From: Chlorella sorokiniana
Lineage: Eukaryota > Chlorophyta > Trebouxiophyceae > Chlorellales > Chlorellaceae
Assembly (NCBI GenBank): GCA_025917655.1
Contig: CP084616.1
Location: forward strand, 1,922,001 to 1,986,000
Length of the DNA: 64,000 nucleotides
Direction of reading: 5' to 3'
In this document: in pieces, positions 3,382 to 61,600 of the stretch
How the letters are laid out: every line of letters starts with the position of its first letter
Numbering within the stretch: position 1 is the first letter of the stretch
Position numbers and translations under genes: made by a program
Notes under the pieces: model-generated
The model's database searches: none
What the model was told of the DNA's origin: nothing
The model's input: the letters and a program-made list of their open reading frames with translations, nothing else

Positions 3382-5519
3382 ATGGCTGCAACCCCACCAG
3401 CCAAGCACATTGCCGTCACCGGCAGCCTCAATGCCGACCTGGTGTTCACGCTGCAGCGCGTGCCGCACGCTGGCGAGACGCTGGCAGCACGCAGCTTCAC
3501 CGTGCACCCGGGCGGCAAGGTGAGGGTTGTAAATCAACGCTGTCCATTGCATTTCCCTTGTGTCACGTTGCTGGACTTCAAACTTTCGGTGCCACACATG
3601 CGTTCAGGGCGGCAACCAGGCGGCGGCGGCAGCTTGCCTCGGCTGCCCCACCAAGCTCATCGCGCAAGTGGGGCGGGACGACCCCCAGTCCCTCATGTGA
3701 GCTGCTGTTCTGCATTGGTCGCTATTTCTCATTTGCTCCCTGCCTGCGACCCACGTTCATCCTACGTCATCCTCTGGCGCAGGTTACGCACTGCACTGGA
3801 GGGCTGCGGCGTGGACACGGCTCTGGTGCGGGGAGTAGACGGGCCCTGCGGCACCGCGGTCATCCTGCTGGAGGAAGATGGCGAGTAGAGGGCGGGGAGG
3901 CACCCAACTCACAAACAGTTTGCAGTTTGCTGTTGGGCTCGAAACTTTGGCTGTGGGATCGAAGCTTGGCAGGAACCGATCCACCTGTCGAGACCAGCTC
4001 CTTGCACATGAGCATGATTGTTTTCCACACTCTTTCCTCCCTCCCAGGCGACAACCGCATCATCCTGCACGGCGGCGCCAACACCGCGCACTGGCAACTG
4101 GGCGCCGAGGCGCAGGCCGCCATCCGCGGCGCGGGGGCGGTGCTGTTGCAGCGGGAGGTCCCCGAGGGCGTCAACACCGAGGTTGCGCAGGTTAGGTTGC
4201 GAGCGTGATGACTGTCTTCTTGGTCTGCCTGGTTTCCAGCGCAGCCGTTTACACACCTCTGCCCTCTGCATGGCTGCTTGTCTTCCCAGCTTCTTTTTAC
4301 CCGTTTCCTGGCTGTTGCAGCTGGCTCACGCGGCAGGCGTGCCCGTTATTCTGGACGCGGGCGGGGGCGTGGACGCCCTCAGCCCCGCACTGCTGCGCTG
4401 CCTGGCCGTGCTGTCGCCCAACGAAACGGAGCTGCAGGGCCTGACAGGTGGGTGTGTTTATGTTGGTGTATGTGTGTTTGCATGAAAGCAGTTTGTGTGT
4501 TGAGAACGAGGTGGGCGGCGTGAACATCTTGCTATGTGTGCGGGTTTTGTGTGCGGTGGTGTCTTTTAAGGAGGGAGCATGGTAAGGGATTGGGGTGGAG
4601 ACATAGGCTGCGCACGGGTGCTTCAAAGCCTGGCGAGCCCTGTATGACGGCTACGAGGGTTGCCCCAAGCTGCGTATGTCCCGCCAGCTGCCGCCCTCGC
4701 TTCATAGCTGCCGCTGCTGCCTCTTGTCGTCACAGCTGGCGCCACCCATTCTTTCCCCCACCCGTTGTCAGGCCTGCCAACCGAGACGGAGGAGCAGGTG
4801 GTGGCGGCGGCGCGGGTGCTGCAGGGGCAAGGCGTAGGCACCGTGCTTGTCAAGCTTGGGGCGCGGGGCAGCCTGCTCATAGGTGGGTGGCTCGCCTTGT
4901 TCCTCGGGTACCCGGCGCTGCAGACTGCTTCCATTGAACAGCCAGCAGGCTGCCGGCTTGGTCAGCCGGCCTTGCCGCAGCGCTGGCCGCTGCCGACTGC
5001 TCCTGATGTGCCCGCTCTGCGTCGCCATCTTGCTTCTGCCGTGGTGCAGATTCGCAAGGGGAGGTGTGGCGGCAGGCGGCACACCCTGTAGAGCGCGTTG
5101 TTGACACGACGGGGGCAGGCAGGCGCCGCCGCAGCTGCTCCCGCCGCGCTTGTCTGCTCGGGAAGCGCTTGCTTGCCGTCTCTGCACAACCTTGACTGTA
5201 GCTTGTCGCATGGCATCAGACGTGCTGGTCGTCACGTGCCTTCTCTAAACACACCTGCTCCGCTGTGTTCCCTGGTTGTGCCTCTATCCATCCAGGCTGT
5301 CACGCGCGCTCTGACCCGCCTGTCTTCTCCCGCAGGCGACTGCTTCACCGCCGCCTTTGCCGTTGCGCTGCTGGAGGGGCGGCCACACCGCGAGGCGATG
5401 CTGTTTGCGGCGCGGCGGCCGCGCTGTGCATTCAGGTGGCGGGTGCCATGCCCAGCATGCCCAGCAGGCAGGCCGTGGACGCCGCGCTGGCGGCGGCGGC
5501 GGCGACGGAGGGAGCGTGA
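3382..5519 (+). CDS. Ribokinase (PfkB-family sugar kinase), one-base frame break near the end
   Basis: Phosphorylates ribose to ribose-5-phosphate with ATP, feeding the pentose phosphate and nucleotide pathways. Plant ribokinase is plastid-targeted, and an in-frame ATG at 3313 would give a longer basic N-terminus. Exons: 3382-3519, 3608-3696, 3783-3880, 4048-4190, 4321-4447, 4772-4882, 5050-5118, 5336-5519. Motifs: N-terminal VTGSLNADLVFTLQRVPHAG; PfkB signature 1 VHPGGK joined to GGNQAAAAACLG; LSPNETELQGLTG; C-terminal signature VVDTTGAGDCFTAAFAVALL with the catalytic Asp. Two introns use GC donors (3881 and 5119). At about 5405-5420 the frame changes inside a GCG repeat: the upstream frame gives EAMLFAA, and one more G gives AAAALCIQVAGAMPSMPS and the expected family end at TGA 5517-5519. 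As written, the upstream frame would continue into an unrelated tail. A sequencing slip is more likely than a real mutation. Confidence 0.85.
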
Positions 5520-5594
5520 CGTGAGCGGCAGCTTTGTTTCCTTCCTGAGCATTGTATCACTGTTGAGCACTGAGTCCCCCTGCAGTTTTGAAGC

Positions 5595-7390
5595 CTACCT
5601 CCGGTTGTTACAGAGATCCATCAAAATGGGGCCAGAAACGAGGCAGTGAAAAGGAGGATGTGTCACACAGCGACTATTGCTTTGAGGGTGTGCTCGCGCC
5701 GCCATCCTCTCCTCCTGCATGTCCCCCATCCGCCCCCGCTCTCGCGCTTCTGCCTCAGCTCGCTGACGTCGCTGCGCCGCCGCCCTTGCCGCCGCCGCCG
5801 CCGCCTGCTGTTGCTGCTGCAGGAGGAGCAGCTGCGCCGCCACGAGTTCCTCGGCGAGCGCATCCAGGAGCAGCTCTGCACGAGGCCAAAAACATCACAA
5901 GAGCTTACAGCCTCACAGCCGGCTATTGCTGCAACTCGCTGTCGCTGCCTGGCGCTCCCACTGTCGCACGCAGCAGGCAAGGAGGCCCAGCATGCAATGC
6001 GGCCAGGCCACACGCAGCTCTTCCCCCACCTGAGCCTGTAGGAGTGGTGCCCGCTCGGTTGGGCGCCCAGCCCGCCGCCACCGCCGACACTGGCACCGTC
6101 AGCGGGTGCTGCTGCTCCTCCTCGTCATGCTGCTGCTGCTGCTGCTGCCCTGTGGCTCGCTGCTGCGCGGCTTGCAGCACAGCGCTGGCGGCCCAAGAGC
6201 CCATGGCATGCTGGTGGGCGGCTGCGCTTTTCGGTGCTGCTCCTGATGTCACATCCTCCTGCTGCTGCTGCTGCGGGGCAGCCCAAGTGGGTGCCCGCAC
6301 CGCCGCCTGCTGCACCTGCTCTGCGTGCTGCCCCTGCGGCGCAGCCTGGTAGCTGCCCGCGGCGTCTGGCTGCCACGGGACGTGCTGCCCGCCCATCACA
6401 CGCTGCGTCACCGGCCTGTGTAAGCAAATGGAAGGAGAAAGGCAGCTGGCATCTACAGGCAGCAAGCAAGGGTGCAAGCATGTCACTGCGGTGTTGACGC
6501 CCTCCGCATTGCTGCGCTGCAACCCGCAGACAGTCGGCTGGCCTGCCAATGTGAAGCCCTGGCAGTTGTTGCGGTTATGACGGATAATCAACAGCCAGCG
6601 CACTTCCACGAATGGGCTCAGACAGGGGCCGACGAGGTCGAGGTCTCGACCAGCGCACCAACTCACACGAGAAACAAAACAAATGCCAACACACCCAGCC
6701 TGCCGCCCACCCACCCGGGGCTGAAGATGTTGATGCCTCCCTGCAGCTCGCTGCGGATTGCGTGCAGCTGGTACATGGTGCTCTGTACCTCCTGGTGTAG
6801 CTGCGGTACAGCCGCACAGAAATGGCGAGTTTGGATTTAGACGAAGGCAGGAGTGTAGGAGGAAGGAAATAGGTGGGTGCGTGAGTGGGATGCAAGCATA
6901 CATGCTGGAAGGAGACGCGAGGGTGCAGCCGGCAGCATGTCTCCAAGCGGCTTGTGCAGAGGCAATGTCTCTTGTAGGGCTGGGCCGCTGCCCAAGACGT
7001 TCCGCTGCAGGGACGACGCCAGTGCACTCAGGCTTGCCTTGGAGATCTCCGTCTCCTCGGCAAACTTGAAGAACTGGCGGCGGGCGCGGTAGAGCAAGCC
7101 GGTGGCCAGCCCGGTGTAGCGGCCCGCCGCCCTCGCCACCCGAGGAAGCTCTTCAGGCCCTGCACAAGAAGCAGCGACCGCTTGGGCACACGGATTGAAA
7201 GGTCACAAACCTTTCATAGCGGAGCATGCTATGCCTTGAGCTGGGTGGCGTTCTCTCGCAAGCGAGGAGAGCATTTGTGGCAGTCCCCTTGCTGCCGCCT
7301 GCCGCCAGCGGCAGCAGCGGGGCGCCACCGCTCACCAAAGGCCCAAGCGGCCGCCACGGCGAGCACAAATATCTCTCCCAGGCTGAACAT
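5595..7390 (-). CDS. TatA/B-family (Sec-independent translocase) protein, mitochondrial TatB-like
   Basis: Five exons (7390-7336, 7159-6999, 6800-6715, 6415-6030, 5875-5595) join in frame with GT-AG introns to 322 residues. The N-terminus MFSLGEIFVLAVAAAWAFG is one membrane helix with no presequence. It is followed at once by the family hinge and amphipathic helix (GPEELPRVARAAGRYTG, then LLYRARRQFFKFAEE). After the next junction come STMYQLHAIRSELQGGINIF and SPGPVTQRVMGG. This order (helix, GP-x-x-LP hinge, long helix, coiled coil, N/S-PGP-VTR) is that of plant mitochondrial TatB-like proteins rather than plastid Tha4 or Hcf106, which carry cleaved transit peptides. The C-terminal half is glutamine/alanine-rich with a helix of about 60 residues (LLLDALAEELVAAQLLLL onward) and is not family-specific. 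An upstream in-frame stop supports the chosen ATG. Expected role: with TatC, moving folded proteins across the inner mitochondrial membrane. The organelle is inferred. Confidence 0.72.
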
Positions 7391-7739
7391 GTGTGTCGCA
7401 AGCAGTGCCAGGAGAAGGTGCCCCCGCCGGGGTGGAGACTCAGGGTAGGGGCCGCTCTCTATTCAGGCCTCAGCTCAGAGGCAAAATAAAGGTCATGATA
7501 AGGCGGAAACCTCAAACAGAATGCAGATGATCGCCCCTTGCGTAAGCCGCGGGGTAGATGCAACCGCATGCGGTGAGTGCTGGCCTTGAGCATCAGGTGC
7601 CTCAGCCTTCAGTCCACAACCTCTCGCCCTCCACCACACTGTTCCCACACCTTCCCCGCCCTCAACCTTCCAACCACCTTCGTCCTGCGCCCCGGCGAGC
7701 CCCTGTGGCAGTCTACCCACCGCGGCAACAACACGTCCC

Positions 7740-10511: not shown

Positions 10512-11179
10512 CTACACCCCCTTGTAGCTCCCATCCTCAAATCGCTCCTCAAGGCCAAACGGGTTGGTGGCAGCTCCCGCTGCCGTCTCATGATCTGTGG
10601 GTGATGGCAGGGCAGGCATCAAGGGCTTCGCTGAGCTGCGCTAGGGCTGCCGGCCAGGGATGGGCTGGAGGAGAGGGGTGATGGGCGGTGGTTTCACCCT
10701 AGGAGGCAGTACAGCACAGCCAGGACGCCAGCGGCCCGCAGCGGCGCACCGCCTCCGTCTAGGGTGTGGTCAGGGTCCAGATGGCCCTCCTGGGCTGCAG
10801 AGAGGAGAGCAAGGGCGGCGCTGTGAGGGCGGCAGAACTGCGGGAGACGAGGCATGCGTGGCAGGCACAGCGTGCAGCGGACAAAGCAGGACCCTTGCTT
10901 ACAAGGCGGGCACCAAGGCTGCTGAGAAGGGCTGCTGCACTGACCGTAGCGCCCGCTGCTGCTATGCGGTGCCCTATGCGGTGCCGACAGGGCGCAGCGT
11001 GTGCCCTGTCTGGCTACCTGGCACTTCCTCGTTGCATGGGCTCTGCTCCCAGGCAGCAGCGCACAGTACCAAGCACACCGGGAGGCCCAAGAGCAACCCA
11101 ACCTGCTCACCCTGAGCATCCAGGCGCTCCAGCCCTCCCGCAAAGCTGTCCTCTGGCAGCAAGGAGGGTATGTCGGCAC
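10512..11179 (-). CDS. C-terminal exons of an unidentified protein
   Basis: Three consecutive exons fit together in frame with GT-AG introns: 11179-11111 (GADIPSLLPEDSFAGG, LERLDAQ), 10794-10698 (QEGHLDPDHTLDGGG, then the hydrophobic LRAAGVLAVLYCLLG) and 10635-10512 (SAKPLMPALPSP, then NPFGLEERFEDGSYKGV, TAG stop). The hydrophobic run of about 15 residues could be a membrane anchor. Upstream exons probably lie between 11200 and 11900, where a minus-strand ATG near 11894 opens a frame with hydrophobic stretches (LSFVFRLLAVCLP), but I could not join them. The alternative that these exons continue the F-box gene is less likely, because that gene reaches its own stop at 11960 beside a TGTAA motif. 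I do not recognise the family. Confidence 0.4.
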
Positions 11180-11959: not shown

Positions 11960-14900
11960 TCACAAATTTACACAGCTCAGGGTGCGGTATGACCTTGGCA
12001 AGGTATGATCGCTGCAACAACAACAGAAGTGCCGCCGAGCGTCGGCCGACTCCCACACGTTCTTGTCACCGCAGCCCCAGGGCCGCCCGCAGCTGCTGCA
12101 TGCCTTTGGAGGCCGCCTGCCGCACCCCGCGCTCCAGCCCCGGCAGCTGCTCACGTCCAGCTGCAACCGCTGCTGCTGCTGCTGCTGCCGCTGCTGCTCG
12201 GGTTGCCACCGCTGCTGGGCACCGCCGCTGATGCTGCTGACATCAAGTGTGGCCGCTGCTGCTGCTGCGTGGGCATCTGCGGCCTGCAGCAGGCGCCGCA
12301 CCCCGCTGTAGTGACGGCGGTGCCTGTTGGAAAGGGGTTGATGGGGGAAGTGAGGGCGGACAGGCAAAGTAGGTTGGGGTGGGGGCCAGAGGGATGGAGA
12401 ATGCAGGAGGGGCAGTTCTGACAGCGGCATGCCGGGTGTTTTCAAGCTAGCTCAGTGGCAGCCTGCGCCACTCCAGCTGGCTGGCACAAAGTTCAGGAGC
12501 GACCTCGCTGCTTCAGCCACCTCGTTCCATCCCAACTGACCGCCTGTGCGGCTGCCCGCCTCTCCTTCCCTCCCTCAGCAGCATGCAGGCAGCCAGCTCA
12601 TTGCCAGTGGAGCCTGTGCTGCAGCAAAGCGGCGACCCACCTGCCAGCGCCGCCGACCGCAAGCGGGGGCAGCGCGCGAGGGCCGCCGCAGCCGCGTCGC
12701 TGATGCGCCCGCCGCCCCAGCTGAGGTCAACGGCCTCCAGGGAGGGCCCAAACCTGCATGGCTTGCATTGCATACAGCTCGGTTTCTTGAAGTCATGCAC
12801 ACTGCAAATGCATAGTGTCAGGCCTCTCTCACAGCCTTTGTGTGCGAAGACCCCCCCCCCCCACCCACACACGCACACCACACCCCCTTGCCACACACAC
12901 ACGCACACCACACCTCCTACCCCCAGCACCCCACCCCACAGACACCCCCACGAGCGCCCCACCTGTCCACCAAAAACTCCACCGCCTCGTCGCAGCAGGC
13001 GCCGCTGCGCGCCAGCAGCACATGGCGCAAGGGGACGGCTGCATGTGCAGGAAGCAGGGAGCGGGGCGGGGCGGGTCCGGCGAGGCATCTTATGCCGGTG
13101 TGCCGCCTCTGCAGGCACACCCAGATACAGTCAGCAGCCCGCCTGTGAATACCGGCTGTGCAGTCCCCACCTGGGTGGATCGCTGTGGCCAAGCTGTCGG
13201 GGGTCAGCCGCTCGCAGCCCCCAGATCCAGCTCCTCCAGCAGCGGCGAGTGCGCCAGCAGGCTGCGCACCAGCACAGAAGGTGGGGGAGAGGTATGAAGT
13301 GGGTCATCAGGGGCGACGGGAGGAGGCAGGCCTCGCGTTGCAAGTTGCAACATGCGCCATGCCGAGCAATGAGCTGGGCAGCCAAGCTGGCAGAGCGGGC
13401 GCTTCGATCCCGCGCGCTGCACTGGCGACAAGCTTGCACTGGCGACAAGCTCAAGCAGGGCGCCGCCGCACAGAAGACATGCAAGACATTTGCATTGGAC
13501 CACCCCCAAGGGCAGCCTGGGATGCCTTGCGCCCCCTCAAGGGCACAGCCACCGCCGGCACCATCAGAACAACGCAGTGGCAAAACTGCTGCAAGCAAAA
13601 GGGAGGCCGCACCGCGTCAGGCAGGCGTCGGTCACGTTTGTGGCGCCGGTGCCAAGGCCCGCCATGTCTGGATTGGATTTGGCTGCCACCTGGATACCAA
13701 AGAAACCAAAACACAAAGGGAGAAAGAACTGAGAATTTTAAGCCAGGGTGAGAGAAGCGGGCAGGGGCCCCGTCGGGGTCTGTAGGCGAGCATGCGATTG
13801 CTGGGATGATGAGCAGCACTAAGGCGAAAAAGGAGCCAGCGGCGAAAGGGAGTGGGCCCCTTGCAATAGCAGCCGACGGGGCAGGAGACTGCAGCAGCGG
13901 CCAGAGCACCAGCAGCGCTTGCACCCGGCACACGCGCAGCCGCGGCCAGCCGGGCGGCGGCGCCCGGCGGCAGCGCCGAGGGCGCCGCGTTGACCCCCAG
14001 CCGTAGGCGCCGCACAGGCCGTTGAGGCGCAACTCTTGCAGGTTGGGGGCCGCGTACTGCAGCTTCTCAATGTTGAGGGTGAAGTCGGAGCGGGCGCCGG
14101 CGCTCTGCGAGAGACAGAGCGTGCGCAGCGCGCACAGCGTGGCGCCCGCGCCTCCACCGCCGCCTCTGCGGCCGCGCGCAGCGCGTGGTGGGAGAGCAGC
14201 GGGCACCCCTCAACGACCAGTTCCTGCGGGTTTGGGGGATTAATGGCAGCACGCGAGTGTTTTGGGGATACGGGCAGTGGCGCGTGGAAGAGAGGCCATG
14301 TCGCAACCACCCAAGCTGACAGGATTCGAGAGGACAGCCGGGAGAAGCAGCGCGAATGGCACCGCCGCCAGTGCCAGCCATGGCCCCCTGCCATGCATGC
14401 AAGCCTGCCACGCCGCAGATAAACAAACAGACAAACAAGCCACTGTGCCACACCTGCAGCACGGGCCCCCCGGGTTGGCTGCCTGCTGCGCCAGCACCTC
14501 GCGCACAACGGCATCCAGCCCGGACACCTTGGGAGACACCTGCGGTACGTGTGCTGGCGGTACACGTGATGACGTGTGTGCAGTACATCGATGAGGCACA
14601 GTGCGCACGAACGGCGCCATACTCAGTGCTGCTGGAGACTCTGTCCTGCTGTTCTGCACCATGGAATGAATGTTTTGGCTGCTGGCAGGGCACGCCCGGG
14701 CGCAGGAACGGGCAGAGCCAGCCAGGCGGGGGCTTGCCTGGATGAAGGAGAGGTCGAGGCGGGCGAGCGGCGCGGTGGAGCCGTCGGCGGCGGCGGGCGC
14801 AGCAGCATGGTGGACAGGGCGGCGCTCAGCGCTCGGTCGGAAAACTGGGTGCAGTGCGCGAGGCTGAGCGAGGTGAGCGCGGGGCAGCTGGAGGCCAGGA

Positions 14901-15779: not shown

Positions 15780-17279
<1,500 letters not shown>

Positions 17280-19447: not shown

Positions 19448-21139
19448 ATGGACGGCCCAAACACCCCTGCCCCTCCTGGTGGCGGCTGGGCAGGGCATGG
19501 CGCCGCCACTGCTGGCACGGGCGCCGCCGCTGCAGAGGCCGGCAGCGTGCGAGTGCAGTTTGAGGGCGGGCGGCGTCTGGGCGGCTGCGTGGCATGGGAC
19601 CCGGCCAGCGGACTGCTTGCGGTGGAGCTTCAAGCCAGCGGTGGGGCAGCTGCCGCAGCGGCGGTGGCCATCATTGACCCGCAGGCTCCAGAGGTGCGGG
19701 GCTCCAGTCGTGGGGCGGCCCCTTCTTTTGTTTTTTGACTTTTGTTTGTTTATTTTGAAGTACGTGGGCGCTGTTTCGAAGCCGGAAAAGGTCCCGACTG
19801 GCATGCTCTGACTATTCTGTGTGGCTAGTTTGTAGTAGGCCAGAAGGCAGCTGGCTGTGCCCCGCTGCCCCGCTTTTGCTGCCGCCCCTTCCCTCGCTCA
19901 TTCCGGGGTTCTGCCGCCGCCAGCCCCCTGAACGCCGCCGCCTGAGCGCCGCCTGCGTCGCTACCTTGCTCCCCTCCCCCGGCAGGGCCACTTTGTGGCG
20001 CTGGTGCCGCCCGGCCGCGGCGGTTCCTCGGGCGAAGGCCTGGCGGCGCTGCTGTGGTCGCCGCCCGCCGCCCGCCGCCTGCTGCTGGCCGTCACCTCCA
20101 GCGGAGCGGCGTTTGCCTGGACCATGGATGCCCCCGCTGCTGCGGCGGCTGCCAGCCTGATTGGAGCGGCCGCCAACGGTGCGACAGGCAGCGGCTCTGC
20201 CCAGCCCGGCGGCGGCGTCGGCGGCGTCGGCGGTGTGGCGTGCGTGAATCAGTGGTACCGCCGGGCTGCCTTCCAGCTGCCGGTACCGCAGGAAGAGGCA
20301 CCCACAGCCAGCGGGGGTCAGTCGCGGGGGCGCAGCCTGCTGTGCTGCCGCTTCCTGGGCAGCGCGTCCGCGGCGGCATGCTGGGACGCGGCGGCGGCGC
20401 CGCCCTTTGCTGACAGGCAAGCAAGCCCTGACTGCGCTGCTCTCCTTTTTTGCTAGCAGCGGGGCTTCTAGCGGATGGTTTTCTTTATCGTTGCATTGAT
20501 TGCCTGGCAGCGCCCGCAAGAGGAGAGGAATGCAGCTGAAGAGCAGAAGTGGGAGGTGCATTGCTTGGCCCACCCGTTTCCTCTGTCTGTCTGTCTTCTG
20601 ATGGCTCTGGCTGCTGGCCCCCCTTACAACCCCGCAGGCAGCTGAGTGCAGATCAAGTGTGCGAGTATTACCGGCAGCGGGGGCTGGAGCGAGCGTTTGC
20701 CCCCGCCGTGCCGCCGCCGCCCGGCGCGGAGCCGCACTGGCTGCGCCCAGGGCTGCTGTGTGTGGCGGCGGTGACTCGGCAGGGGCAGGTGCTGCTGGCG
20801 CTCGGCGGTCGTGGCGTGTCGAGCGGCTGCGGCAGCGCGAGCGACGGCTGGGTGCTCGCTCCTGCGCTGCCGCTGCCGCTGCCACCTCCCCAGCAGTCGG
20901 CCCTCTCGCCTGATGCTTCTGTCGACGTCGCCGGCGGCAGCGACGAAGCACAGCTGGAGCTGCTCCTTGCTGACGTGGCGCCGTCTGCCGGCGGCGGCCT
21001 GCTTGTCGCCGCCGCCGCCGCCACGGCGGCGCCGCACGGCGCCGCAGCACATACCTCCAGCGAGGGTCCCCACCATCAACTGTTGCTGTTTGAGGTGGCT
21101 GGCCCACCGCCGCCCTTGCTGGCAGCCGGCGGCGGCGCC

Positions 21140-21173
<34 letters not shown>

Positions 21174-24100
21174 TGGCGAGGCTGTCTTCCCCGCTCGCTG
21201 CCCTGCCGCCAGGAGCGGCGGCCCTCTGCCTGGCCTTCCTCCCAGGCGGGCCGGCCGCTGCCAGCCGGCTGCTGGTGGCTACCGGCTGCGTGGACGGCGG
21301 CAGCTCAGCCCTCGTGCTCTCCTGCAGCAGCAACAGCCGCAGCCTGGGCGGTCTGCACACGTGGCAGGTGCAGCCGGGGCCCAGCCTGCAGCTGGACAGG
21401 CAGGCAGCAGTCGAGGCAGGAGCGGCGGCGAGCGCCGCAGCCGCCGCCGACGGCGCTCCATAGCGCTGCTGCTGCCCGCGGAGCGGCGCCTGCTGCGCCT
21501 GCAGGCCGGCCACGGCGGCGCGGCGGGCGGCGACGGCGGCGGCGCGGCTCTCCCTCTCCCAACCGCCGGCCGCCGCTCCTTTCGCTGCTGTGCCCGCCGC
21601 CCGGGCAGCGGAGGCGCCGCCGGGGCTGGCGTGTTCGCCCAACGGCACGTTTGCTGCCGCCGCGCAGCCCGGGCGCCTCTGCGCTGCTGCTGCTGCCGCT
21701 GGTGGCGCAGCCGTGTGGGGCCGCTGAGGTGGAACCTTTCATGCTGCAGCTGGGCAAAAGGTGGGCTGAGGGGCGGCAGGGCCGTGGGTTGGGCGTGGCG
21801 GCTTTGGGAGGCCACGTGGCCGCATTCAGCTGCTGCCGCAGCATTCAGCAAAATTCGGACCAACCACTGTTGCACTCAGCTGGGGATGGGCTGGGCAGCC
21901 TGACGCCGCTGGCAACGCCTCCCAGCCAGACCAGAATCTGTCACGGCCAGGGGCGGGGTAGCGGCGACGGCGCTGCAGCCCCCTGTCCATTTTCGCTGCC
22001 TCCCACCTCGTCCCCCTCCCTCTTTATGTGCATGACCCCCGCCCGCCCTCCCACCAAACCAGCCACCCCTCCAACCATAGCGCCCCTCACACCCAACCCC
22101 ACCCCATGCTGCACCCTCGCTTCCCTGCAGGTGCTGTGCCGCCCTGCTGGCGGGCACCGCGGGCGGCGCAGCCGGCTGGGACCTCACCGCGGCGGCGGCG
22201 GCGGCGGTGCGCCGCTGGGGCCACCCCGGCCTGCAGGCAAGCGCAGCCGCAGCGCATCCAAAACTGCACTGTTTGTGTCGAGAATCATGCTGGTCTGGGG
22301 TTGTGCTGCTTTCTGCTGCCTTCCCGCCCTTGGCCTGCCCCAGACAGACGTGGGCCGACTGCACACAGCTTCCTTTGCGGTTGCTAGCATCGGCATCAGT
22401 CGCCGCCAGTTTGCAAGCGCTCATGTGATGAAGCCTCAGCCTGCCGCCTCCCCTCCACGCCCGCAGGCCACCCAGCAGCTGGTGGATTTCGCGGTGGCGG
22501 CGGTACGGGACGACGCCCGCCCGCAGTACGCGGCCGCCTGGTCCCGCCTGAAAGCCGCGCTGCTGGCGGCCGCCGCCGCCGCCCACCCCGCCGCCGCGGC
22601 GGACGCCGGCGCCGCCGCCGTGCGAGCCGACTCGGCAGCCCGCGAGTGGATGGCTGCTGCCGCCGACATCTTCGATGCCCACCTGCCTGACAAGGCCGCC
22701 CGCGCCGCCGCAGCCAAACAGGTGGGTGCTGCAGCCGCTGGACAGCGATGCAAGTGTGGAGATAGGGGAGAGAGGGGGGGGCAGCTTGCCCACACCCCTG
22801 CGCACAGCCCCGTTTTTCTGTAGTTGCTCCCTACAATCCCTACGGATGCTTTGGCTGTGCCTCTTGCGTATGCTCTGCCGCCGCTGAGCCCCTTGCTTGC
22901 GCCGCCTTTCCCCACCCTCCACCCTTCGCCGCCAGGGCTCCGCCGCCATCCACGCCGACATGCGCGCTGCGCTGGTCAAGCTCATGCCAGCGCGCTACTG
23001 GGCAGTGTGGGCCGCCGATTTCTCCTGCTACCTCGCCCGCTGCCTGCTCTACTGGCTGCGCCTCAACCAGAAGGGCAAGGGCGGCGGCGGCGGCGGTGGG
23101 GACGCGACGGTGGCGCCGCCGGGCGACGGGCTGGCTGCGGGGGCGGACGTGGAGGCGGCCGCCGCCGCTGCTGCCTTTGCGGCGGAGCAGAGCGCTGGGC
23201 CTGACTGCCTCCCCTGTGTGCGGCTGCTGTCAGGTCCGCGGTGTGCTGCTGGGGCGAATTGTGTGCGGGTCTGTGTGGGGTGTGTGTGGAGGTGGGCGTG
23301 GGCGTGCCTGCGATGATGTCGGTTGCGTTCCCTCAAAGTTTTAAGTACCTCTCGCCACCCATCATCCAGCCTGGATGTTCTTGTTTTTCTCTTGCATTGG
23401 CTTCAATCGCTTTGCTCCCTGCAATATGGCGCATCTTGCCCCCCCACCACCCACCCACCCACCCCACCCACCCACCCACCCACATCCACCCACCCCCTTC
23501 CCCCCTCCTCTGCAGATGCCCAGTTCTACCGCTCCTTCAGCCGCCTCGTGTCAGGCATCCACCAGGCGAGTGCTGCCAGTGGGTGGTGCCGGCGTGGGTG
23601 GAGGGGGGGATGGGGTGGGGGCTCAGTGCTGCCAGTGGGTGTTGCCGGCGTGGGTGAGTGGAGGGGCGGGGAGGGGGATGGCTCCCTCCTGAAGCTAGGC
23701 TGGGGGTGGGGGCCGGGGCTGCAGCGAGGACATATGGGGATAGGCTGGCGCACATGTCAGCTTCTCAACACATCGCAAAGCCCCGCCCACCGCCATATCC
23801 CCCCTCTCGTCCAATGTCAGCTTCTCAACACATCGCAAAGCCCCGCCTTTTGCCATTTACCCCCTCCCCGCCCTGTCGCAGTTCCACCGCCTGCTGTCCA
23901 CCCTCAACCGCTCCAAGACGCCCAACAGCAGCTTCGAACTCATCATCCAGGTGCGCCGCCGTGCCAGCAGCCTCTCTTTGGCGCGCCTTTGCGGTGTGGA
24001 TAAGCTGGCTTCTGCTGGAAAAGCGCTCGGCCCGCCCTGCGCCGCAAACTAAATAAAGAATGCGGCCCCTGCCTGTTGCATGCCCTATGCGCTGGGTTTC

Positions 24101-35041: not shown

Positions 35042-35079
<38 letters not shown>

Positions 35080-35923: not shown

Positions 35924-36067
35924 GACTTTTCGCTACATATCATGAGAACCGGACGCACAGCGAAGACGCAACAGCTGGAAGTGCCAGCGGCACGACTGGC
36001 AACAAAGAGGAAACACGGTGCAGTTGGTCCCTCACAAACCCGTTGATTTGATGACCCCTAAGGAGCG

Positions 36068-44200: not shown

Positions 44201-47200
44201 TTCGGCTGGAGCTAAAGGTTCCTCCTCCTGCCTGCTTGTTGCGCAGCATCACGATGATCCTTCTGCCCCCTGCTCCCAAATCCTCTGCTGTGCAGGTGTC
44301 CCTGCCCTTTGGCTGCTCCCTGCCAGAGCTGCTGGCCCTGCTGTCCTCCAAACAACGCCGCGGCGGCCCCGCGCCGCCATCGCCGCCGCCGGCCTCTTCT
44401 CTCCGGGCCCTGCCCCCGCCTATCCCGCTGGGCAGCAGGGCGGGGCAGCGCCGCCGCCCAGGGGCGTGGGCGGCGAGGGGGCGATGTGGCCAGTCCGGGC
44501 CAGTGGCCCAGCGCCGCCCACAGCACACACGGCAGCGCTTCACCTGCAGACGCTCCGGAGGCAGCAGAAGCGGCAGCTGCCCACGCACCGGCGCCGGCCG
44601 CACCCCAAGCTGGCGCCCTCGCCAGCCCCTGCCCAGCGCAGCCGGGACCGATCAGAGCAGCGCGCTGGCGGGAGCGGCAGCCGCCATGGCGGCGGCGGTC
44701 GGCAGCTCGGCCACCGGGCTTCAGAAGGTGCGGGGGGCCTGCGAGGTTTCAGCCTTTTTATAGTTGATTGTAGTTGATTATAGTTGAAAAGCTCCCTACT
44801 GCCGCCCCGCTGGGCCCGCCTGGCGGCCCCCTCTTGGCAGCCTTCCCAAGGCCAGAGGGAAGGCCGTGCGCCACATCCTTCCTTGCTGCTTTCGTCTCGC
44901 AGCTTACTTCTCGCCAGGCCAAAACATCCAGCACCGTCTCCTTGCGTGTTCATCAACACTGCTACCGTGCCGCAGCTGTGCATCGTGCGGTACCGCCTGC
45001 CCTCCGAGCCGGCCCTGCTTGTGGACGTACTGGACGACGACGACGTCAGGTACCGCTGTTGTACCGCTGTGATACCGCCGATGCTGCCGGCGCTTGGTTT
45101 GATTTCCCTGATTGAACCTGGGGAGCACTTTGTGCTGACCCAACAGCGCTGGGGTCGGCTGTCGCGGCGACACCCTGGCTGCCTGTGCCTCTGTGGCCGC
45201 TGCCGCGCTACCCCTGCCGCCGTAGCGCTGTTGCGGCCTCCACCGTCCACCCAGCTCGTTGAGCCGACTGTACCGCTGGATGTGACACTGTACCGCTGTT
45301 TGCAGGCTCATGTTTGAGGAGTACTCAGACTGGATGGTGGAGGGCGGTGAGTTGGGGACGCTGCTGTTTGCTTGTGCGGGACGTTTTTATTGCGTTGACC
45401 TGCACATGTCTGCTGGATCTGTCTGCCGAGACTAGGCCACCAAGCGCACTCAGCTTCACTTGGAAAGGGCTGTGCTGGCGGGGGCGCACCCGTGGCTGCT
45501 TGCTGGATTGCACTCGGCGATGGGTGCCTGCTCGTCTCCTGGCGCCGCTCTGCCGACCCGCTCCCTGCCAGGCTCCCCTCTGGCCAAGAGGCTTGTTCAT
45601 GGAGCCTCCATTGATGGACTGGCTTTACAGCCCAACCAGACTGATTCCTGCCAGCTGTCCCCCCTCCTCCCCCTGCCCCGGCAGCAGGCGGCGACGCTGG
45701 CAGCCCCTCTGCCCGCAAGCTGCACCTGTACGTGGAGTGGCTGCCGCCGGCCACCCTCGTGGCAGCGAGGATTCAGGCGAGGCCCCAGCCTCGCTGCCTC
45801 GCTGACGCTGCACCCGCTGCTGTCGCCGATGCTGGCAGCAATGAAAGAATGCGGCAGCTGCGGATGTTGGCTGCGGTTGCTTTGTTCCAACAAGTCATCT
45901 GAGCTCCCGCTGTACTGGTTACATGACAAAGCATCCGACGCGCGCCACCACTTCCCCACCTCACAACGCCTTACCCCCACCCTCTCGTCCCCGCAGAGGA
46001 CTCGGAACCGCGCCCTCCGGCGGCCCCCTGGCGTCCTCACCCCTTCTGATGACAGCTTGGAGGACGCCGGGCTCCCCGCCGCCTCCACTCTGGAGCCGCG
46101 GCTTTCAGACCTTCGGTAAGCTCCCTCAGTGCTGTGTGGTCACGCTTTCCCCTGCTGCTGCCGTTCCTGCCGTTGATGATGCTGCTGCTGCTTGTGCCGC
46201 CGCCGCTGCTGCTGTCCGCTTCTGCCACCTTTCCCCGTCTCTGATCCCGCTGCCCACTGCTCTTCCCGCTTAGTCCGCCGTCGGGAGCAGCACATGCGCT
46301 CTGTGCTGCTGCACTTCTGGCCCTCTCTGTCGCTCTCTCCGTTACTGCAGTGCCCTGTTCACCACTTATTCGGGAGCGAAGCGCGTGCCGCCGTCTCCCA
46401 ACGACCCTATCTGATTTGCTCCTCTCCCTACTTTTGACTCACCTTCAGGAGCAGTAAGATTGAGGTCATCCCCGCCACTGACGTCACGCTGCTGGCACAG
46501 CTGGGCACAGGCACCTTTGGTGGGTTGCGGATTCAGCAGCTGGTGCTGCTGCGGGGCTTGGACCATTTGCAAGTAGGGGCGAGCTGTTACAGTTGCAAGC
46601 TGGCCCCGGTCTTGTCTACCGCACTCACGGCTGCTCTTTGCTCCTCCCACCCACCCACCCCACACACACTGCAGGCGCCACCTACCGCGGTTGCTGGCAC
46701 GAGAGCGACGTCGCTGTGGTGAGCCGCCTCGCCCCATTGCTTCAGCTGCTGGCGCTGCTGCTGCCAGGGCTGCCGCCCGCCTGGCCCTGCTCCCCTTGCC
46801 GTCGGGCCGTGGCGGCACTCCCGCCTCAGCCGCAGCCCGGCCTGTGCCTCCTGCCTGCGATTACACAGCCCTGCCCCCAGCCTGCATTTGCTATGCGTCG
46901 GCTCCTGCCGCGTGCTCACCCCGCCTGGCCCTCTGCCGCCCGTGCCCGCAGAAATGCATGAACCCTCTGATGGTGGGCGGGCGCAGCCAGCTGGGCGTGG
47001 GGGCATCGTCTGCAGGCTCAGCGGGCTCAGCAGGGCTCAGTTGGCTGCGTTTCTGCCCAGCTGCGAGCTGTTGCTGCATGGGATGTGGACCCATCTGGGT
47101 ATCCAGGCATGCATGCCGCGCTGCGCTGCCGAATTCACTGCATGCATCCCGGCTGCTGGGCCTGCACCGGTGTACCGCAGATAGGCGTGCAGTACGCCAG

Positions 47201-50200: not shown

Positions 50201-50277
50201 GAGGGGGGGTCGCTGATCCACACATGTGATGGTGGTGGTGTGTATGTAAAGTGTGTGTGTGTGTGGTGGTGGTGGTG

Positions 50278-50309
<32 letters not shown>

Positions 50310-51680: not shown

Positions 51681-54150
51681 ATGAGCGTCTCCTCGCAACC
51701 CTCCTGTAGCACCGCTCGCGGCCGCACGGGCTGCTTGCGGCCGCCATATCAGGCCCGGTTTGGCCAGGCGGCGGTCCACCAGCGACGCTGCCTCCCACCC
51801 ACTGCCGCCGCCGTGGCTGCCGTTGCCGCCGCTCCTGGCGGCGCTCGCTGGGGCGGTCGCCCGCAGCCCTACCCTCGCCGCACCGCCCGCCTGCGTGCCA
51901 GCGTCGCAGAGTGAGAAGAGAGGCTGCCCTGCTGCTGCATGCCTGGTTAGGGCTGGCCCAGCAGCGGCTTCGCCGGCCGCTGGGTGCTGCCACCGCTGCC
52001 ACCGCTGCTGCACGCTCGCCGCCGCCGCCGCCGCCGCAGCGCCACACCCGCGTCCCTTCCCGCCCATGCCCTCCGCGCCGCCTTCTTTCCTCCTGTTGCC
52101 GCAGCGAGTACCCCGTGGATGACTGGCCGGCTGAGGCGCAGCTGATTGCGGCGGCGAGCGCTGGCGACCTGGCTCGGCTGCGGGCGGTGCTGGCCGAGCA
52201 TCCGGGCACCGTCAACGCGCGCACCCGCCTGCCCTGCTCCGTCGCCTCCGGCTACTGCGCCCTGCACTTTGCAGCGTTCAACGGCCACGTGGCGTGCGTG
52301 GGGAGCTACTGGCGGCGGGGGCTGAGCCCAGCACGCGGGACGATCGCGGCGCCACCCCGCTGCACTGGCTCGCGGCATCGGCCGGCCTGGCGGGCGACCA
52401 GGCGCGCGGCGAGGCCTGCCTGCGCCTCCTGCTGGCGGCGGGGGCCGACCCGGATGCTCGCGACGAAGACGGCGAGACGGCGCTGCACTCGGCCGCGCGC
52501 CTCGGCAACGTCGCCGCCGTGCGGGGCTTGGCGGAGGCGGGCGCATACCTTGAGGTGGGGGCTGCCTGCTGCCTCCCAACCTATTTTTTTTTTTTTTTTT
52601 GTCACTGTTGGTATAAATGGATTGGTCGGTCGTGGGGGCCTGTTCAGCACTCCCTGGCGGGGTCGGCGGGCAGCCCGCATTTGCGGGTCCAGTAACAACA
52701 GCCGTCCAACTGATGTGGCCCCACCCGCCCCGGCTGCCGCCGCCCGCAGGCGCTCTCACTGGAGGGCGAGACGCCGCTGGAGCTCGCCGACAGCCATGGC
52801 ATGGGGGAGGCGTCCGCTGTGCTGCGCGCGCTGCAGGTGAGGGGTGGTGAAGCACCTCGCCACGGCGTGATGGGGCGCAGCGGCTGCGGCGGCTGGCGCT
52901 AAGGAAACAGCAGAGACGCACGCATCCTTGTTTCCGGGCGCTTTGCGACCTCTGCATGGCTCCTCAGCACAGCCGCCCCCCCGTCCGTGTCTTGGCAGGG
53001 TGACTTGGATGCCAGCCTGTCGCTGCGCGTGCCCGGCGCCGACGCCCCCTGTACACTGATGCCCTGCACACACCCCTGGATGAGCCCCCGGCGCCGGCCA
53101 GCCGGGCAAGGCCGGAGAGGAACACGGAGATGCAGCGCCAGTCGCCGGCGGCCGCCGTGGCGGAGCTGGCGCAGTACATGCGGCGCGGCGGCGGCGGCGG
53201 CGAGGAGGTGTTTGGGCGGGAGCTCGTGGGCAAGGAGATTCGGTGCGTCCGCCCTTCCTTCAGCTCTTGTTTCATTTATATCATCTGCTGGCTGTCCGTC
53301 TGTCCAGCGGCCCCGCCCAGCTGCGCGTCTCCTGCTTCTCTCCTTGCTTCAGCTAGCCTGCCCGCCGCACCCAGCGCTGCTGTGCAGCAGGCTTCCCGCC
53401 ATGCCGCCGGCCCCGGCCTCGTCGCCGCCCGGCCCAGCTGCAGCACACACCAACCACCATGATCGCTCCAAATCTGCAGGGTGTGGTTGCCTGATCGCCG
53501 CGCTTTCCACCTCGGCCTCGTCACCAACTGCATCCTGCCAGACAGGCGAGCCGAGTGCGGGGGCCGCGCTGGGGGCTGATGGGGAGGACAGCTGGCAGAC
53601 AGGCAGATGCCGGCGTGAGAAGCAGGCTGGCAGGTGCATGCGTGCCCAACCAGGCTGCACATCATTGTGCTTGGTTCTCTTGACCTGTTGCTGACTGTTG
53701 AAAGCCGCAGCTTCTGCGCTTCCTTGACCGCAGGGTGCACCTGGTTCGCTTTGAGGGCTTGGACTCGGATGAGGTGACGCAGCGCCTGCGCCTGCGCCAC
53801 GTGAGGCACTCGCAGCGCCGCTCGTCCCCGTGGCTGCTGCGCCGCATCGCTGCCTGCTGCTGTTAGCTGTGGCACCGCTGCCGCCCACCGGCTGCCCTGG
53901 GCCGGTGCATTGCTTGGGGAACAGATGGCATGCTGCTGCCTGATGCGGCGTTGCTGTCTTTTTTCCAGCCAGGACGTCGGGAGCCGCGTACGCTGCTTCA
54001 AGCCTTTGTACGCGCGCGCGCACACACTCTGGCTGCTTCCTGGCTTCAACCTCGCATGCCTCGCCTCCCCTGCTTTCCTCGCAGGAGGTGGTTGAGGTGC
54101 CGGGCCCCGACGGCCGCTGGGTGCGCTTTGAGCGTGGCCAGCGCTCGTGA
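51681..54150 (+). CDS. Ankyrin-repeat protein
   Basis: Exons: 51681-51910, 52105-52554, 52750-52836, 52999-53242, 53480-53545, 53734-53800, 54085-54150. The N-terminus (MSVSSQPSCSTARGRTGCLR) is basic and alanine-rich and could be a plastid or mitochondrial targeting peptide. Ankyrin units: AEAQLIAAASAGDLARLRAV, GYCALHFAAFNGHVACVGEL, DDRGATPLHWLAASAGLA, LRLLLAAGADPDARDEDG, ETALHSAARLGNVAAVRG and LEGETPLELADSHGMGEASA. The C-terminal part has AAVAELAQYMRRG, VWLPDRRAFHLGLVTNCILP, VHLVRFEGLDSDEVTQRLRL and EVVEVPGPDGRWVRFERG. The intron at 53546 has a GC donor. One base is missing at 52302 (GGGG run) and at 53046 (CCCCC run). Ankyrin repeats mediate protein contacts; the partner is unknown. The C-terminal segment is not a domain I recognise. 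Confidence 0.75.
52584..52600. repeat. Poly-T run of 17 in an intron
   Basis: 17 consecutive T 30 nt into the intron after exon 52105-52554. Such long A/T runs are rare in this window. Confidence 0.9.
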
Positions 54151-55662: not shown

Positions 55663-58600
55663 TCAAATGCGGCGCCGCGGCAGCTGAGCCTCTGGCAGCG
55701 CGCAGCCCGAGGCCCAGGATGAAACAGACTCGATGCAGCTGAGCTCCTCGCACAGCGTTTGCAGCGTGGAGGGGCGGCCTGCGGGGGTGGGAGGGGGAGG
55801 GGAGGCAACTGGGTGAGGGCAGGGCATTGTGGGTTGGGCGAGGGGCTGCTGTGCTGGCTGAGCAGCGGGTGCAGGGCAGACCGGCAGCAGCAAGTGACCC
55901 AAGGCGGGGCAGGGGCAGGGGCAGGCGCCCCCAACCACCATTTGCCTCAAACACACACAGCAAAACAGGCCGAGGAAGCCAAGGGAGGCGACACGGATGA
56001 AATAATCCCCACACAATGTTGCTGGCCACACGAACAAAAAAAAAAAAAAAAAAGTGGCAGAAAGGGCGCGCAGCCCACCCTCTAGCTCGTATTCCATCAC
56101 AAACAGGCCGGCCTCGGGATCGGCGCTGCCGCTGTAGGCCTGCGGCGGGCGGGCAGACAAGGCGGGCGGGGGGGGTTTAAAAATGCAGGCTGGGTCAGCA
56201 ACTTTCCCAGCCGGCACACGGTGACGCAGGGACAGCGGGCAGCTGTCAACCTTGGCATGGAGCGAGCGAGCAACGGCCTTCACAACCGGCGACAGCATGA
56301 TACGCATGAAACAACCAGTGGAGACGAGGGGCGAGGTTGGGGCTGCGCAGCGCCCGCAGAAGCGGCGCGGCGGCGCACCGTGATGTTGTGCTGGTGGCGG
56401 GCGATGACGTTGGCCACCTCTGCCAGCAAGCCCGGCCGATCCTCACACTGGATCACCATCCAGGTGACCTGGCGCGCGTCGGCGTCCGCGGGGTGCCGGC
56501 AGCGGTACTGCCGCATGTACCGCTGCCTGCATCCCCGCCGGAGGAGAGCATGGCGGAGCCGCCCGGGGGCGCCATGCCCTTGCTGACCGCCAGCGCGGCG
56601 TGCTGGCGCAGGAACTTGGCTATCTTGTGGCGGGCAGTGCGGGTCTGCGAGGAGGAAAGCGCGGCCACGGTGAGGCGGGGAGGTTTGGTGGTCTGGGGGA
56701 GCGCCGGGCGACTGCATATCGCTTGGAAACTGCCCCGCTGCCCGACCCCAAAACCTGCCATTGGGTGCTGTGCTGTACAGAATCGCAGGCGCAGGCGCAG
56801 GGAACCCAATATAGCCCATTACAGCGGCAGCTGAGCGGAAGTCGGGCACCCACCTGCGCGGCATCCAGCCACTGCTGGTGGCGGCGGATGATGGTGGCGT
56901 TGACGGGGCCCCTGTACCGCACCACCTCCACCACCTCTGCGGTACAGGTGGCGGCGCAGAGACACTGATATCGGTCTGTGTGCCATGGACATGTCGCAGC
57001 TCTCCGACCATCGGCAGGGCCCCATCATTGCAAAGAGAGGTGGAGCAACTGCCGCTGCCCTCTCCCCCTCCGCAAACCCCTCGGCCCGCCCCCCCGGCCC
57101 CCCACCACCACACCACACCACCACACACACACACCATCTCTGCTTAACACCGCACCCCTCCCCCCACACCCACCCACCCACCTGCGTTCTGCAGCTCCCG
57201 GTCCGCGCTCACCACCTTGCCGTTCACCTTGGCCGCCACCATGGTGTTGCCCATCTCGGTGTGGATGTGGTAGGCAAAGTCGATGACGGTGGCGCCCTGC
57301 GGCGGCGGCACGCACAGAGTGTGTGTGTGTGTGTGTGTGTGTTGTGTGTGTGTTGTGTGTGGATGTGTGTGTGTGTGTGTAGGTGTGTTGGGGGTGGGGC
57401 GCGCGGGAGGCGGGGAGGGTGGAGGGGCCGATGGTTGGCAAGGGCGCGTGCAGGTGGTGGGGGCCGACACCAGACCCAGCTGCGCCAGCACGAGCACCGC
57501 CCACACAGCGGCAACCGGGATCCGAAGCCCCGGCTGCAGCAGCACGCAGCGTGCAGCGCTCATGCCGCCGCAGAGCTGGCAGCAAGGGCCGCGGCGGCAA
57601 CCTCAGCGCCGCACCTTGGGCAGGCGCACCACCTCGCCCGAGGGTGTGAACACAAACACCGACTGGCCCAGCAGGTCGTCGGTCACGCACTCCACAAACT
57701 CGGAGGCTGCAGCGGAGCGAAGGTGGAGCGGCGTTTCTCTCATCGGAGGGGGCCAAAGGGTGGGTTGGGAGGAGAAGCATGCACGTGAGTGAGCATGCAA
57801 GCGGGGGGGACCTGCCTCCCCAACACCCGGTGCAGGGGAGGCAGGGCGGCATCAGCGCCCGCTGCCACCCCTCCTCCCACCCACCCCCTTCCCCTGCCCC
57901 TCTCCCTCCCTCCCCCCCTCCTCTGTCCCTCAATCCCTCCCTCCCCCTGTATCCGCCCACCCACCCGTGAGCGTGCCAACGAACTCGCTCTGCCACTCTC
58001 GGATGGACTTGAGCCAGTTGATGCGCCGCGACAGCACCTGGGGGTCGATGGAGCCCTCGCCCAGGGCAGCCGGCGCGCCGCTGCCGTTGCTGCCGACCGC
58101 GGCGCCGGCAAGCGAGGAGCCGTTGGCCGAGGCGGTGCCATTGACGGCGCCGTTGCTGCCTGGGGCCGCACCGTTGCGACTGGGAGCGGCAGCCCCGTTG
58201 GTGCTTGCGCGGCCGCTGCCGCCGCCGCCGCCCGCCCGTCATGCTGGAGACGAGGCGGCCCAAGTCGAATGGGAACCTGCTGCCTGCGCTGCCGTTGCTG
58301 TTGCCGTTGCTGCCGGCCGGCTGGCTTGCCTCGCTGGCGCCGGCGCCGGCCCCGGCTGCATCCCACTCGTCGCTGGAGCCATCGCCGCCCGCCCGCCGCC
58401 AGCTGCCCCCCGCAGCTCCACGACTCGATTGCGATGCCGTTTTCCGCAAGCCGGTTCATCTGCTCGGTGCGGATCTGCACCTCTATGGGGAAGAGCAGGC
58501 CGCCGCTGCTCTTGCGCCGCGACCCGGGCGCCGCCGACCCGTTCTGCAGCGCCGCAGCGACGTCCAACCCGGTAGGCACCACCTGGGGAGCACAGGAAGC

Positions 58601-61600
58601 AGCGGGGGCCAGCACAGTCAGCCGACAAGTGGGGCTCCCTGGGGAAGAGAGAGCAGGGGAGCAGGCAAGAGAGCCAGGCTTGCGGTGCTGCGATGCTGCT
58701 GCTGACCGCCTCGCTCTAGCCCCCACACCCCTTTCACGGCGCCGGCTCAAATTGCACACCCCGAACCGCCCAGTGTCAGGGCAGGGGGGCAACGAGCGCA
58801 GCACCCACCGAAGTGTGCAGTGACTGGTAGTTGTTGGGCTTGGGGGTAGCGATGTAATCCTTCATCGATCCGGGGATGGGCGCCCAAAAGGTGTGCACCA
58901 GGCCCATGACGTGGTAGCACAGCTGCTTCTCAGACCTGCGGCAGGCGCAACGCACAAGGGGGCATGGGTGCAGGCTGCAGAGCGAGCGACCGACAGGGCG
59001 GCCGGGCGGGGCTGCCACGCAGGAAGGTCGCCAAGGCGGGCGGGCTGTGTGGCGGAGGGGCAGGTCAGGAGCAGGGCGGAAAGCGGGCACGCGGCAGGAG
59101 CTGAGAACAAAGGCGGGCACAAGGGGACGCCAGCAGCAATGTGTTCTTGGTGGCTGCGCGGATGCGGCGCGGCTTGCAGAGGGAGCAAGGAGCAGCAACG
59201 CAGCAGCAGCCGGCGGCTCACCCGTAGTCCAGAGCAAGGGCAGAGGCGCCGGCGGCCCCCGCGCCCGTCCCCGCGGCGCCATCACCACCCGCAGCTGCGC
59301 AATGTCCCCCACCTCCTTCACGCTCCGCCCCGCTTCGTTCAACTTGCGCCAAGAGCTGCAGGGAGGGGGTGGAAGGTGCGGGGCGGGCCAGGTGTCGGCA
59401 TGCTGCGGCTTTGGTGGGGCGCATGGCTCCCCCTCGAGGCTCTCCCTGTGGCTGGGAGCTGGCAGCCAGCGGGCTATCCAGTGGCTGTTCCGCCAACAAG
59501 TGGCGCCGGAGCGAACACTCTGCCCACCCGCCCCTCCCCCTCTTGGGCCCTTTGCTGCCCTTTGCTGCTCGAATGGCTCCGCAGCTTGCCTGTAGAGCGC
59601 CTTGCGGCACGCCTCCACCCGCACACCCTCCACCCGTGCCAGCAGGTAGGGATCGTTGTCCAGCCGCTCCTGCAGCTCCGCCCGCGCAGCCTCCACCACC
59701 GGCCGCTGCGCATCCCACAGGCGGGACATGGAGCGGCGCATCTGGTCGTACTGGGCGGGCAGGGCGTACCTGGGGAGTGGGGTGGGGTGGGGTGTGGGGG
59801 GGCAAGCGTGGGCACACACAGGGAGGGGTGGGAGCGGCGGATGGATACGTGGGATCTGACACCGCGCTCTCAGCATGCAGCCCGCTAACCGAGCTGCTGA
59901 AAGCTGGCACCCCCAGCTTGAGCCTGCTTGCGCTGCCCTCGACCCCCTGCTGGTTGGTTCTCCTGATCCACAAATGGACAGTGGCAACAACCCCACTTCT
60001 CACTTGAAGCTCAGCTCCTCGAGCTCCTCCTTGATGCTGTACAGCCCCAGCAGGCGCGCCAGCGGCGCAAACACCGCCAGCGTCTCCTGCGCGATGCGCC
60101 GCTGCTTGGCGGGCGGCATGGCCGCCATCGTGCGCATGTTGTGCAGCCGGTCGGCGAGCTTCACCACAATGATGCGCACCTGGGGACCGGATCACGGGAA
60201 GGAAGCAGGGAGGCGGGGAGTGAGGAGACAACAGAGAGGGAGCAGCGATGCCGCCGCGAGGGGGCAGTGGTCAAAAGGCGGGCAGGCTCGCTGCCGCGGC
60301 GGCGCCAGCCGGCCGCCAAGCAGCCAGGACAGTCCAGCAGCGCAAGGCCAGCGGTGGCATGGCACAGAGAGCCGGCTCCTGTCGGTACCGCTGGAGCTGC
60401 AGGAGCTGGAAAGGGCCCGCTCACCTCCTCCGTCATGGCCAGGAACAAGAACTGGAGGTCCTGCGCCTTGGGGTCCACCGGTACTGCTCCTGTACCGCTA
60501 GAGGTCCCCGCCAGCTCCGTGGCGGCTGCCGCGCAGGCCAGCCCGCCGCTGCGCCCGCCCGTGCTGTTGCGATCCTCAGGATGGTGCGTGGGCAGCTTGC
60601 TGCGGCGGACATACGCAAACAGCGGCCGTAGGAAGGCAGCGGCAGGGCATGGAGAGGGGGCAGCCGAACCAGGGCCGGCGGGGCTGACAGTGCATGCTTT
60701 GCTCCACGCTTTGCTGCCTCAGCTCGCGCTGCACCCTGTGCTGCTGCCACGGCCCGCGCTTCCCCATGCAGCGATGGAGCCACAGAAAAGCAGGCAGAGA
60801 AGCCGAGGCAGCGTCCGCCCCCACCTGAACTTTGTTTCGCCCTCCACGATGCGGCGCACCGCGGGGCCAAAGTGGAAGTGGATCTCGTCCAGCCCCACCA
60901 CGTCCCCGCAGTCCTCCACCGTGTCGTGCAACAGGCCTGCGCAGAGCGAAAGGAGCGGCGGCTTGGCGACTATGCCTGCAGCGGCTCGCAGAATGTATCC
61001 GGCAGCGAGCCTCTGTGTGAGGGAGGAAGGAGGGGCTGGCGTGCGTAGACGAGCGGGTGTGGGTAAACCCGCGCAGGAGAAATGTGGTGTAGGAACATTG
61101 CAGGGTTGAAATGAGGTGGAGGGGGAGAGGGCACGGCGACACGGCGGCGTGCCGCGCCAGTAACCACTGCACGCAGGGCGGCTGGACCAGCCAGCAGCCC
61201 CTACCAGCCCCTACCCAGCCCGCATGCCAGGCTGGTGCCAGCCGCGAGCCTCCCTCGGACACGCCCATGCTGCGCCCCCCGCGAGCGGCTCACCCGCCGC
61301 CAGGCTCTCGTGATCCATGCGCAGCTCCGCCAGTATGCGGGTCACTTCGACCGGATGCGTGATGAAGGGCTCCCCCGACTTGCGGCGCTGCCCCGCGTGC
61401 GCGTCGTACGCCAGGCTGAGCGCCTCCCGCACCGCCACCACCTCGTCGGCGGCCAGGTAGCCCAGCAGGGGCAGCAGGCGCGTCTCCCACAGGTAGTCCT
61501 CCGTCAGCTCGCCTTCCCGCAGCCGCTGGTAAAACTGCGGCGGCGGCGGAGGAGAACAGAAAGTAAGATCAGGTTGCAGCGAGGGGACGGGGAGCGAGGC

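Follow-up and report, generated by a model that had tools for sequence, protein, structure and literature searches.

Predicted GC-AG introns are abundant in the GC-rich genome of Chlorella sorokiniana

We analysed a 64,000-nucleotide stretch of the Chlorella sorokiniana genome (the window; contig CP084616.1, positions 1,922,001 to 1,986,000), in which a first-pass annotation had placed about 80 introns, eleven of them beginning with GC instead of GT, and had claimed a share of such introns above 10%. To judge from sequence, GC-AG introns are most likely genuinely abundant across the genome, a phenomenon of a kind already known. Outside the window, ten copies of conserved genes had GC at 7 of 67 GT plus GC introns, a share of 10.4% (confidence interval 4.3-20.3; p = 1.7e-5 against 1.2%), which bears out an elevated share of about 10% or more and departs from the share near 1% that the annotation had named as the outcome contrary to its claim. 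These are probably ordinary U2-type introns in which the second donor base has drifted from T to C at strong donors, with U1 and U6 of ordinary sequence. The genome (38.8 Mb in 15 contigs, the 13 long ones summing to 38.6 Mb, and the other two, of 77 and 118 kb, which may be organelle genomes) has a GC content among the highest, as in the GC-rich algae with abundant GC-AG introns: the window stands at 66.5%, and the 18 regions fetched elsewhere at 51-71%, 17 of them at 63-71%.

Donors were called with a protein-to-DNA spliced aligner written for this analysis, to which frameshift moves were added later, and runs were compared with GT only, with GT and GC, with all 16 dinucleotides at equal cost, and with GT favoured by 4 or 8. 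Housekeeping genes were found with reference protein sequences and 13 arbitrary 10 kb regions were added, giving the 18 regions (L032-L049). Under a strict filter (eight residues on either side of the junction free of gaps and frameshifts, at least two identities per side), the ten gene copies gave 60 GT, 6 GC, 6 TG and 3 other donors at equal cost, and, when GT was favoured by 4, 60 GT, 7 GC, 6 TG and 2 others. Of the six TG junctions, five (GG/TG, a slash marking the donor boundary) are probably GT donors shifted by one base relative to the frame next to an assembly deletion. The five copies picked before any donor was seen, a fully blind set, had 4 GC donors among 39 (p = 0.0012), and the other five, which were not fully blind, had 3 among 28. 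One beta-tubulin intron, at codon 22, reads as GC-AG in both paralogues (L034 and L035), with donors GCAAGG and GCGAGT. Several candidates were set aside: early GC calls in TUA, EF2 and the two TUB copies (L034, L035) beyond the four counted were dropped as effects of indels or masking; SnRK1 432, OASTL 16 and several CLC junctions were excluded as their placement differs between runs; and OASTL 196 and CLC 118 and 245, picked in both runs, fell to the strict filter.

The donors themselves differ in context. In the ten-copy set G stands at +3 in 57 of 60 GT donors, while all seven GC donors carry G at both -1 (mostly as AG), which agrees with the AG/GC context claimed by the annotation, and +5, and A at +4 is found in 6 of 7 GC donors versus 14 of 60 GT donors (p = 0.002). 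Watson-Crick matches to U1 outside position +2 are more numerous in GC donors (Mann-Whitney U test, p = 3e-5, 7 versus 60 donors; p = 6.5e-5 with the window genes added), and if the GC donors are read with T, their median pairing energy is -10.3 kcal/mol versus -8.1 for GT donors (p = 0.004), that is, a stronger pairing. The same context discriminates GC from other dinucleotides: at [CA]AG/GC/AAG, 6 of 44 sites show a drop in coding signal and, in the sample, no site with any of the 14 other non-GT dinucleotides does, and with 16 donors allowed 9 of the 44 are called as donors versus 2 of 215 for those 14; at [CA]AG/GC/GAG the calls are 7 of 41 versus 8 of 355. U12-type introns have donors of the RTATCC type, and none of ten GC donors examined is of that form.

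The splicing RNAs look ordinary. A search with family RF00003, in which 41 of 617 candidates were scored, reported a single U1 gene above cut-off, its 5' end AUACUUACCUGG, and no second U1. U6 gave 14 matches, 13 above cut-off, and the one that was read has an intact ACAGAG box. The 5' end of U1, which the first-pass annotation had singled out for inspection, is thus canonical in the one gene found, and the shift in U1 recognition that it proposed is unsupported, this U1 and the U6 read both being of the usual form. Among the protein components, zf-U1 (U1C) matched at two places and LUC7 at two loci, all above cut-off; a Methyltransf_10 match considered as METTL16 was discarded as not identifying, the family also matching prokaryotic controls. 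Separately, eight 64-base U6-like matches, shortened copies arrayed in tandem about 555 bases apart, lie at C4:2006301-2010250, and a full U6 gene at C4:2010742 adjoins them.

In the drift explanation, position +2 of a GC donor would be mismatched to U1 (A-C), and the donor would survive mainly where its other positions pair well: G at -1, usually within AG, a purine at +3, usually A at +4, and G at +5. Pressure from T to C, whether by mutation or by biased gene conversion, would keep generating GC donors in a genome of 66% GC, and strong donors would tolerate the change whereas weak GTGNG donors would not, the outcome being about 10% or more GC-AG introns spliced by U1 and U6 of ordinary sequence. 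We infer from sequence that the GC sites are actually spliced, that the change ran from T to C, and that GC pressure had a part in it. The annotation itself had suggested donor drift in a high-GC setting, which is compatible with this; what it lacked was the qualifier that GC donors match U1 better at their other positions.

This conventional drift most likely fits better than a shift in U1. A lineage-level change in 5' splice-site recognition, by U1 modification or through U1C, LUC7 or Prp8, would lead C to be accepted at +2, and it would suit a share of about 10% against the plant average of 1.2% (PMC6310983); for Aureococcus and M. pusilla, PMC3033335 also proposes that modified bases or U1 proteins are involved. 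We nevertheless think it unlikely, as the U1 and U6 RNAs are canonical and the GC donors still show compensation, for which there would be no need if the machinery were fully relaxed. Put more narrowly, a relaxed check of +2 (by modification of U1 or U6 RNA, or through U1C, LUC7 or Prp8) would make C and T nearly interchangeable at strong donors and leave GC content a permissive role only, a version to which we likewise give little weight.

Artefact is a slimmer prospect still: assembly indels together with a free choice of frame would invent most GC introns, the true donor being GT. There is some ground for it. The alignments show ten apparent deletions of 1-2 bases, mostly at C or G runs, in conserved exons of alpha-tubulin, EF2 and beta-tubulin (L032, L033, L034 and L035, reverse strand), in four of six alignments and about 2,600 aligned codons, and none in actin and centrin in the same alignments; in the window, the frameshifts of the gene model lie near 689, 14799, 22137, 24540, 46455 and 60480. 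The assembly looks unpolished, and such exon deletions mean that GT donors can fall out of frame and confound GC calls; the annotation had taken the assembly as error-free, which it apparently is not. For example, EF2 763 is GC in the GT plus GC runs, yet the run with all 16 dinucleotides gives cgg/TGCGAG, an out-of-frame GT donor, and two of the eleven window claims are without support. Against artefact, alignment that tolerates indels and includes decoys retains 6-7 GC donors versus 2-3 for the dinucleotides beyond GT, GC and TG; in centrin 16150, SnRK1 and the L035 tubulin, splicing at the following GT (4-5 bases further) would add residues and break the frame of a conserved block; and in centrin 16441 and the L034 tubulin the intron contains no GT among its first ten bases. 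Masked (N) stretches were also seen within or next to the coding exons of beta-tubulin and actin (L034, L035, L036). Finally, a separate U1 variant that carries G opposite +2 and serves the GC donors is highly improbable. The sequence ATACTTGCCTG, which differs from the U1 5' end at one position and has a G able to pair with +2C, does occur at 15 genomic sites where base composition alone predicts about 7, but only one U1 emerged from the RF00003 search, and the compensation in GC donors would be needless.

Several observations weigh against the drift explanation or the abundance that it accounts for. Only seven strictly filtered GC introns were found outside the window, of which two stand at the same position in the tubulin paralogues, and both the aligner and the gene model required AG acceptors. 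In the three window genes aligned, the equal-cost run gave 3 GC and 10 GT donors plus four others (AG, CA, GG and CG), so that decoys there equal the GC signal in size; all four odd calls disappear once GT is favoured by 8, and the method is noisy where, as here, the references are distant and bacterial. The pairing-energy difference weakens to p = 0.04-0.05 with the window genes added. Context is also less sharp outside the AAG form: at [CA]AG/GC[AG][CG]G, 10 of 336 sites are called versus about 1% or less of decoys and 73 of 209 for GT, a weaker contrast, and in the /GAG context a few coding drops occur in decoys too. Some GC donors depart from GCRAG, namely GCGCGC (GDI, centrin) and GCACGG (centrin), and the GCGAGT donors (L035 tubulin, SnRK1, ribokinase 3881 and 23566) have a GT 4 bases downstream, which also suits artefact. 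Genome-wide, the 9-mer CAGGCAAGC occurs 2911 times, CAGGTAAGC 277, CAGGTGAGC 1533 and CAGGCGAGC 1807; the excess of CAGGCAAGC over CAGGTAAGC is mostly predicted by an order-3 model of the sample (ratio about 7.7), and since that model accounts for most of the C:T ratio, the counts were rejected as evidence of donor number. Beyond this genome, Micromonas RCC299 has only 2.7% GC-AG introns at 64.1% GC (PMC3033335).

Ab initio estimates point the same way as the alignments, roughly. With a coding model trained on 242 kb (the window and L032-L049) and all donors treated alike, two settings gave decoy-corrected GC shares of 15.4 and 12.6%, over a heavy background (at the first setting GT 164, GC 83, CC 58, GG 49, CA 48). 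A single-site test, in which GT counts carry no decoy correction and decoys were sampled one in four, gave from 11.9% at the loosest threshold to 25% at the strictest, a pair in which overlapping window pieces count some sites twice, and 11.3-22.8% without the window. These shares, 11-25% overall, are rough and all come from one coding model. When the gene model could use GT and GC donors, its raw counts were 334 GT and 93 GC (128 and 26 in 14 recognisable genes), and with all 16 donors 51 GC, 29 CC, 20 CA and 19 GG; since CC, CA and GG are also called, the raw counts are inflated and only decoy-corrected values were used. As a separate observation, the word GTACCGC is about threefold above order-3 expectation (103 in 242 kb, both strands), and in the window and L032-L049 it showed no tie to intron ends.

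By homology, introns with GC ends and continuous flanking protein are predicted at five window junctions and seven elsewhere. All eleven coordinates of the annotation read GC on the strand given; eight are supported, 45777 is weak, and 20417 and 53546 are without support. Homology backs 3881, 5119, 16150, 16441 and 59589, and the coding model with decoys alone backs 14737, 22237 and 23566; the gene model by itself predicts 8 of the 11. For the coding-model test, donors were added one by one and the gain compared with 450 of 4,651 decoy sites scored alike; because the gene models behind its codon table already admitted GC donors, the test of window sites is not fully independent. Among 250 sampled GC sites (578 in the window), only 16150, 16441 and 14737 gain more than 5.

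The predicted centrin introns at 16150..16320 (forward strand, aag/GCACGG, gain 16.6) and 16441..16623 (forward, cag/GCGCGC, gain 12.0) are flanked by 16 of 16 and 14 of 16 residues identical to a Chlamydomonas centrin reference; both still win with all 16 dinucleotides equally priced, and restricting donors to GT lowers the score from 601 to 548 and raises the number of gaps from 2 to 11. In the ribokinase gene, the predicted intron at 3881..4047 (forward, atg/GCGAGT, gain 14.8, p = 0.002) was picked in both the GT plus GC and the all-16 runs, with EEDG^DNRII ungapped against structure 6ilr, which we take to be an Arabidopsis protein; GCGA is common to both intron ends, so that an alternative GT..GA placement lacking an AG acceptor exists. 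The second ribokinase intron, 5119..5335 (forward, cag/GCAGGC, within VDTTGAG^DCFTAAF), was picked in the all-16 run and not with GT plus GC and has a coding-model gain of 0; homology is what suggests it, the junction being ungapped against the second domain of 6ilr with a query hand-joined at 5119. The RSH1 (RelA/SpoT homologue) intron at 59356..59589 (reverse, cag/GCAAGC, CRKALYS^SWRKL, gain 0.4, p = 0.018) was picked in both runs and is ungapped against 6s2t, and it fails the strict filter.

The coding model indicates probable introns at 14540..14737 (reverse, cag/GCAAGC, gain 10.0, p = 0.002), in an F-box/LRR-like gene whose LRR match is weak and under the Pfam cut-off, and, in a MED16-like region, at 22237..22466 (forward, cag/GCAAGC, gain 4.9, p = 0.004) and 23566..23881 (forward, cag/GCGAGT, gain 4.6, p = 0.007); the predicted protein of that region (22237) had no match in Pfam. 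Weaker support attaches to 45777..46448 (forward, cag/GCGAGG, gain 1.5, p = 0.016), between PB1-like and kinase parts, where the gene model places a frameshift shortly downstream of the donor. The donors claimed at 20417..20418 (forward), in the MED16-like region and preceded by tttgctgacag, acceptor-like in look, and at 53546..53547 (forward), after an ankyrin region, both have a gain of 0 and are absent from the gene model.

Gene finders limited to GT would mishandle roughly every tenth intron of this genome, conserved genes included, in line with the annotation's remark that GC-AG abundance would mislead them. PMC3033335 calls the cause of high algal GC-AG use an enigma, some GC-rich algae having 8-40% and a close relative about 3%; buffering by strong context would predict that the GC-AG share tracks T-to-C pressure multiplied by the fraction of strong donors. 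A limited literature search found no prior report on GC-AG use in this species, and the passages of PMC12902096, PMC3488318, PMC12633428 and PMC6972661 give no share for this genome.

Abundant GC-AG introns have been published before for GC-rich algae, among them Chlorella: Iwata and Gotoh 2011 (PMC3033335) give 39.6% for Aureococcus, 22.2% for Micromonas pusilla and 7.7% for Chlorella sp., from which the 10.4% found here does not differ (p = 0.36). C. sorokiniana resembles those algae in high genomic GC, a share many times 1% and a canonical U1 5' end, reported there as AUACUUACCUG in Aureococcus and two Micromonas; Chlorella is absent from the three species whose U1 they describe. What is added is a further genome, a decoy control at the level of junctions and measured donor compensation, known here from genomic sequence in place of transcripts. 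The rest of the donor lies nearer consensus and offsets C at +2, as in the GC-AG introns of mammals and nematodes, and PMC2490688 describes compensation at mammalian GC donors with neutral fixation in strong contexts; unlike in those animals, where such introns are below 1% and tied to alternative splicing, in C. sorokiniana they would reach about 10%, housekeeping genes included.

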